Positions 45,991 to 47,990 of a DNA stretch of 64,000 bases are shown one piece after another. The DNA is taken from positions 124,001-188,000 of the forward strand of contig NZ_CANKUD010000004.1 of NCBI RefSeq assembly GCF_947486615.1, read 5' to 3'. The stretch is from an uncultured Modestobacter sp. Its GTDB lineage: Bacteria > Actinomycetota > Actinomycetes > Mycobacteriales > Geodermatophilaceae. The stretch's first letter is position 1. Each line of letters begins with the position of its first letter. Under the pieces are notes generated by a model. That model worked only from the letters and a program-made list of their open reading frames with translations. It ran no database searches and had not been told where the DNA came from. The translations under genes and the position numbers were made by a program.

Positions 45991-46644
45991 GTGGCATCTC
46001 GACCCCAGAGCTCCCCGCCCGCTCCGCCGCAGCTGCCGGCCGACCTGACCGAGGAACACCTCCTGGTGGCCGATCTGACCGCGCACGTCGAGCAGCGCAG
46101 CCTGCACGGCGAGGTCGAGGACGTGCTGCTGGACGACGTCGAGGTCAGCGCCGGCCGGCTGACCCGGCTGCGGCTCATCGGCGGGCGGATCACCCGGTGC
46201 CAGTTCACCGACGTCGAGGTCGTCGACTCCGACCTGTCCGGCGTCGACGTCCCGGACAGCCGCTGGCAGCGGGTCGCGGTCCGGGACAGCCGGCTGGCCG
46301 GGGTCTCCCTGGCCGGCGGCACCTGGTCCGACGTCACGCTGACCGACGTGCGGGCCGCGCGGCTGGACCTCCGGTTCGCCACCGTCCGGCGCGCCCGCTT
46401 CACCCGCTGCGACCTCAGCGCCCTGGACCTGACCGGCGCCACGCTGGACGGCGTGGTCTTCGAGGACTGCCGGCTGGTGGAGGCGCGGTTCGCCCAGCTC
46501 ACGGTGAAGCGGGCCGAGTTCGTGGGCTGCGACGCCTCGGCGTCGATGGGGGTCGACTCGCTGCGCTCGGCGGTGGTCGACGCCACCACGCTGATGTCGC
46601 TGGCGGCCCCGATGGCCGCCACCCTGGGCCTCCGGTTGAGCTGA
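45991..46644 (+). CDS. Pentapeptide-repeat-like protein
   Basis: ITRCQFTDVEVVDSDLSGVDVPDSRWQRVAVRDSRLAGVSLAGGTWSDVTLTDVRAARLDLRFATVRRARFTRCDLSALDLTGATLDGVVFEDCRL. Confidence 0.82.
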   Translation: MASRPQSSPPAPPQLPADLTEEHLLVADLTAHVEQRSLHGEVEDVLLDDVEVSAGRLTRLRLIGGRITRCQFTDVEVVDSDLSGVDVPDSRWQRVAVRDSRLAGVSLAGGTWSDVTLTDVRAARLDLRFATVRRARFTRCDLSALDLTGATLDGVVFEDCRLVEARFAQLTVKRAEFVGCDASASMGVDSLRSAVVDATTLMSLAAPMAATLGLRLS

Positions 46645-46714
46645 ACGGACCCCCCGGGATCCCGCCGCGGGGTGAGATCTCGCCCGCGCCGACCGCCCCT
46701 CGGCCGGGACGGGT

Positions 46715-46720
46715 TAAAAT
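46715..46720 (+). promoter_or_regulatory. Candidate -10 element of the sigma factor gene
   Basis: TAAAAT inside GGTTAAAATTG, an AT-rich island in a very GC-rich region; no convincing -35. Confidence 0.4.
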
Positions 46721-46726
46721 TGCAGG

Positions 46727-46871
46727 CCGACTGCCCGAGCGGGGCCGCTGACGCGGCCCGAAGGGCGGTCGACCGTCAGCACGTGCCGGCTCCTGCCGGC
46801 ACCCAGCACCGGCCTCTCCGCCATCACCCTCGGGTGCGGCGACGCCGACGACACCGTCAGGAGAGGCGATC
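46727..46871 (+). promoter_or_regulatory. Structured 5' leader of sigA/rpoD with sequestered Shine-Dalgarno
   Basis: Nested hairpin 46729-46770; hairpin 46783-46802; hairpin 46820-46840; CCTCTCC (46813-46819) exactly complementary to the SD GGAGAGG (46860-46866). Confidence 0.65.

Positions 46872-47990
<1,119 letters not shown>

Follow-up and report, generated by a model that had tools for sequence, protein, structure and literature searches.

A conserved structured RNA leader preceding a duplicated SigA-type sigma factor gene of Geodermatophilaceae, a candidate regulator of translation

The gene considered here lies in a window of 64,000 nucleotides (the whole stretch of DNA analysed) from an uncultured Modestobacter sp. 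of the Geodermatophilaceae, and encodes a sigma factor of the SigA family; in the window's open frame, no start codon lies between the upstream stop and its ATG at 46872. The gene is preceded by a leader with three predicted hairpins, P1 to P3, and the features of the locus are as follows.

46715..46720, + strand: -10-like element TAAAAT, read from the sequence, with a transcription start presumed near 46727
46729..46770, + strand: P1, a large nested hairpin with exact stems and a weak arm-swap result in relatives
46783..46802, + strand: P2, hairpin GTGCCGGC-TCCT-GCCGGCAC (arms 46783-46790 and 46795-46802), replaced by a hairpin of different sequence at the same place in relatives (arm-swap test)
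46810..46819, + strand: near-invariant block CGGCCTCTCC, made of CGGC (46810-46813) and the anti-SD strand CCTCTCC (46813-46819), from 24 aligned paralogue leaders
46820..46840, + strand: P3, hairpin GCC..CACC-CTCG-GGTG.GGC (arm-swap test)
46839..46847, + strand: near-invariant segment GCGA(C/T)GCCG, from the same 24 aligned leaders
46860..46867, + strand: Shine-Dalgarno (SD) sequence GGAGAGG(C), with GGAGAGG at 46860-46866, 5 nt 5' of the ATG and complementary to 46812-46819; GA(G/A)AG is kept in the paralogues
46872..47990, + strand: SigA-family sigma factor paralogue of 372 aa (Pfam sigma-70 r1.2, r2, r3 and r4; NCBIfam PRK05901; member of a paralogue clade)

The strings, hairpins and coordinates given for this leader in the original prediction were each found to be exact when the sequence was re-checked. 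P1 is built from an outer stem pairing GACTGCCC (46729-46736) with GGGCGGTC (46763-46770), and from an inner stem pairing GGGCCGC (46742-46748) with GCGGCCC (46753-46759). Regarding the promoter, the hexamers TAAAAT, TAGAAT, TACCAT or TAGACT are present about 80-110 nt 5' of the anti-SD block in most of the other paralogues; no -35 match was found, and a scan for consensus promoters and terminators returned no match. Besides, within 46783-46819 of the window, the CCGGC(C)TC sequence found in P2 is repeated just 5' of the anti-SD strand, and the loop of P2, TCCT, is the complement of AGGA in the SD region; repeats resembling CCGGC(C)TC also occur in the leaders of Blastococcus and of the genus g9.

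The gene itself had been taken for that of the primary sigma factor, an assignment that has to be replaced by that of a paralogue, given the longer sigA and the sigB on another contig and the position of the window gene in the trees. The second sigA copy of the same genome, an open frame of 447 codons, lies at 81746 of contig C9, some 10 kb from a sigB-like gene (63%), and is 87% identical to the window gene across residues 33-372. Because of its greater length, its sigB neighbour and its placement in the tree, this C9 copy would be the canonical sigA. In the trees (131 sequences, and a careful tree of 52), the window gene does not fall with canonical sigA as an ortholog: it belongs to a separate sigA-paralogue clade inside the Geodermatophilaceae (support 100/98), which groups with the canonical sigA of that family (support 99/90). 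A derivation of the paralogue gene from the Nocardiaceae is ruled out on the 52-sequence tree by the AU test (p 0.00035). A flanking-gene search using the downstream EamA neighbour as query gave no matches.

The paralogue leader was found in 28 of the 115 genomes of the family, namely ten of the same genus, seven of genus g2, nine of g9 and one each of g3 and g5. All 28 share one order of elements: a predicted GC-rich P2, CGGCC(U/C)CUCC(G/A)C, P3, GCGA(C/T)GCCG, a short segment, GA(G/A)AG and the start codon. Among the 24 aligned leaders, the anti-SD block is nearly invariant and the sequence around it diverges. The canonical sigA of the Geodermatophilaceae is preceded by a different leader, and a homologous core is found 5' of the canonical sigA of Nocardia, Rhodococcus and Rhodococcoides and, more distantly, of Hoyosella. 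The leader of Nocardia and Rhodococcus resembles that of the window in its core CC(U/G)CUCCGCC, its P3 hairpin, the sequence GACGCCGCACGAnACCGUCACGAAAGG and a P2-type hairpin upstream. It differs in that it precedes the true primary sigA, that its SD, GAAAGG, has one or two mismatches to the block, and that the CGGC partner directly 5' of the block is absent.

A covariance model of this core was searched against 115 genomes of the family, 399 of the order and 395 of the class; the scores of the sequences from which it was built are not independent, those of members found by the search only are. In the window's own genome it gives one strong match (1.3e-13), the next being at 0.067. All matches below 1e-6 precede sigA-type genes, these being the 28 paralogues and the sigA genes of 17 genomes of the Nocardia/Rhodococcus group. 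Weaker matches outside both families (E from about 5e-6 to 0.01) are treated as chance, since none of those fetched was at a sigA gene, and the model did not find the core at the mycobacterial, pseudonocardial, micromonosporal or Streptomyces loci tested. With regard to known families, the leader had been proposed as a cis-regulatory RNA of a kind not described before, to be compared with Rfam. That comparison agrees with the proposal, release 15 yielding no match at E<=5 in window positions 46000-47300 and, in seven relatives, sub-threshold chance matches only, none of them at the leader.

The reality of the hairpins was assessed by arm-swap tests, in which the 5' arm of each hairpin is joined to the 3' arms of the others and the pairing energies of own and swapped combinations are compared. 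For P3, split at its midpoint, the own arms give -250.1 against -182.7 +/- 10.6 for swapped arms (0/20000). For P2, with fixed split points and control windows, the values are -524 and about -373 +/- 17, a difference of 8.6-9.2 sd (0/5000); the control windows and most shuffled sets stayed near 0, one of five shuffled sets reaching -2.8 sd. In the same line, the P2 region has a mean z of -1.70 over 37 leaders, against +0.08 in a control window. P2 and P3 thus diverge in sequence among relatives yet remain self-complementary, and in view of the arm-swap results and the flat controls they are real RNA helices held by compensating changes. P1 gives a weak signal across relatives (-2.2 sd) and is probably not a conserved part, so that, of the hairpins initially proposed, P2 and P3 stand as conserved RNA, with little conservation of P1. 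For P3, the arm-swap test was preferred to column-based covariation, which depends on the register, because an alignment shifted by one column scored no lower (0.110 against 0.088). RNAalifold applied to the Nocardiaceae alone returned a nearly invariant and hence uninformative structure.

In the window, the complement of the SD, first noticed as a perfect match of 7 nt, is present and in fact extends to 8 nt, GCCTCTCC (46812-46819) pairing with GGAGAGGC (46860-46867). Among dinucleotide-shuffled leaders, a 7-mer complement occurs in 3.8% and an 8-mer in 1.4% of cases. The window leader folds at -93.3 kcal/mol, against a mean of -80.7 for the shuffles (z -2.9), and its MFE structure pairs the SD with CCTCTCC. 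The SD is predicted to be 98% paired (2% unpaired), and 97% paired with CCTCTCC, against 40% unpaired in shuffled leaders. High G+C could in principle account for the hairpins, and luck for the SD complement, as GC-rich leaders fold strongly anyway, the shuffles averaging -80.7, and the 7-mer taken alone has the chance frequency just given. Against such an origin stand the arm-swap tests with their flat controls and the covariance model, whose single strong match in a genome invariably falls at a sigA-type gene, so that chance is a very improbable account of the leader as a whole; as a source of P2, of P3 and of the core it is refuted, and it may still apply to P1. The leader is therefore well supported as a conserved structured RNA element, and can be put forward as a previously undescribed candidate regulator.

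The SD complementarity seen in the window persists across the paralogue clade, the invariant block being the best SD complement (rank 1 of about 141 positions) in 26 of the 28 leaders. The SD:anti-SD stem of the window is predicted to be a GC-rich 8-bp duplex of -16.6 kcal/mol, and for most paralogues the predicted cost of freeing the SD at 37 C is about 4 kcal/mol or higher. An RNA thermometer of the rpoH or ROSE type was rejected on these predictions, such a GC-rich duplex not being a weakly melting SD stem. Covariation, which had been suggested as a check of the leader, does not back the SD pairing: no compensatory change is found among the 28 paralogues, and the sole double change is that of Hoyosella (CTTTCC/GAAAG). 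Within the helix, three pairs never vary and two deviate by mismatch only. A single C.A mismatch is found in 11 of the 28 paralogues, internally in six leaders with GGAAAGG and in those of G080 and G083, and as the loss of one near-end pair in three leaders with GGAGAGA. According to energy predictions, no more than about half of the paralogues have an SD that is clearly locked by the block. SD occlusion is the weaker part of the case, drawn as it is from conservation.

In addition, the Nocardiaceae keep CC(U/G)CUCC with an SD, GAAAGG, that matches it poorly and is predicted to be mostly open, so that something other than SD pairing, for instance protein binding, may conserve the block. An RNA-binding protein, possibly autogenous or linked to the ribosome, would then land between two scaffold hairpins and read the invariant CGGCCUCUCC and GCGAyGCCG as sequence, with the SD complementarity being secondary. 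Invariant strands amid variable helices are typical of protein sites, and the block stays conserved in leaders whose SD matches it incompletely, as in the Nocardiaceae and the G091 group. However, most paralogues have GAGAGG as their SD, a better match than GAAAGG, and the rank of the block as best complement in nearly all of them also speaks for pairing, so that a protein site alone seems unlikely.

A second pairing involves the same block, as CGGC (46810-46813) is able to pair with GCCG (46844-46847). RNAalifold, applied to the 24 paralogues with no structure supplied, gives a consensus of CGGC:GCCG, CGC:GCG and P3, and in the predicted CGGC:GCCG fold the SD is left free, with CUCUC placed in an internal loop. 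This pairing is itself invariant, hence without covariation support, and would explain the invariance of both CGGC and GCCG. As nested folds, CGGC:GCCG and SD:anti-SD exclude each other; jointly, they would form an H-type pseudoknot. Since RNAalifold prefers CGGC:GCCG with a free SD, a two-state switch or a pseudoknot is possible, and bistability of the leader can be hypothesised from these models. The predicted preference shifts even among close relatives of genus g9, G079 and G085 being locked, and G084 and G078 open.

The reading favoured here, with a probability of roughly 0.5, is that of a conserved cis-acting RNA: the leader would set the translation of the duplicated SigA-type sigma factor mRNA through SD-locking versus SD-free folds. 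In the closed fold, the invariant CCUCUCC would pair with the SD and close a junction containing P3, thereby blocking ribosome loading; in the open fold, CGGC would pair with the downstream GCCG, leaving CUCUC in the internal loop and the SD free; and some factor, whether protein, small RNA, ligand or ribosome, would shift the balance between the two. We infer that both states exist, that the leader shifts from one to the other and that protein level is affected, and translational control by the leader is, on the models, plausible at about even odds. As to a small RNA, the partner pattern GCGGAGAGGCCG matches the genome exactly at five sites, including the leader itself, and its 203 matches, only moderately above the 158 of a reversed control, are uninformative. 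A more specific and rather improbable version would make the core a bistable or pseudoknotted sensor, with CGGC:GCCG and CUCUC:GAGAG arranged as a-b-a'-b' around P3 and a ligand or protein deciding on SD access. Such a core would descend from an ancestral sigA leader of the Actinobacteria and would have been refined, on the duplicate sigma factor, into a lock of the SD.

The leader might also work with no switching at all, its hairpins protecting the 5' end or positioning the ribosome as a stabilising or standby structure under constant expression. The essential sigA of the Nocardiaceae has the same hairpins with an SD predicted to be largely accessible, and long leaders also precede canonical sigA genes of related families. 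Such a role is possible though doubtful, as the strictly invariant segments outside the hairpins exceed the needs of a stability hairpin.

Regarding the origin of the leader, protein trees place the duplication in the Geodermatophilaceae while the leader resembles that of Nocardiaceae sigA. The simplest reading of these comparisons is that the paralogue would have retained an older sigA leader that was lost from the canonical copy; alternatively, the leader alone may have been transferred to the paralogue.

That the 5' leader of a sigma-factor mRNA can pair over its ribosome-binding site is known from rpoS and rpoH of enterobacteria. These leaders respond to activating sRNAs or to temperature, and their likeness to that of the window is limited to the possible pairing over the ribosome-binding site: there is no sequence relation, and here the gene encodes a SigA paralogue in Actinobacteria and the strand that would pair is an invariant block flanked by two hairpins. 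Among actinobacterial leaders, the dauA motif of Streptomyces, which precedes the gene for a STAS-domain protein, was described as a three-stem junction including the SD and proposed as an OFF switch (PMC11109978); the comparison with the window leader is by description only, and the genes are unrelated. If it works as proposed, the window leader would act like these other SD-occluding leaders. The main text of two surveys of bacterial structured RNAs (PMC6429828, PMC11109978) does not mention a sigA or rpoD motif, and no description of the Nocardia/Rhodococcus sigA leader was found in the papers searched; the novelty of the leader is provisional, the literature searched leaving out most subscription journals. 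In those papers, post-transcriptional control of actinobacterial SigA-type sigma factors is hardly described, and an RNA common to the true sigA of Nocardia and Rhodococcus and to the duplicate SigA of the Geodermatophilaceae constitutes a defined, testable element, in which the poorly matched SD of the Nocardiaceae can naturally be compared with the matched SD of the paralogues.

Finally, other sigA leaders show features of their own. The canonical sigA of the Geodermatophilaceae has a long leader of about 190 nt, running from GTCGTTACAATGG to CACGGGAAGGAACCTGAGTG with recurring motifs such as GCGGTCAAACACCGC, which is seen in the window's genome at about 81.1-81.5 kb of C9 (upstream of sigA in L002) and at L126, L132, L171 and L100, and which may be another structured RNA. 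In the sigA leaders of Nocardia (L033, L049, L222, L223), near-repeats of a CCGGCG..GCCGG hairpin lie 5' of the conserved core. In some Pseudonocardiaceae and in Actinopolyspora (L037, L038 and L046; absent in L025 and L041), a hairpin loop (U)UUCGCG is complementary to CGCGAA(A) of the SD region, which could possibly form a pseudoknot over the SD.
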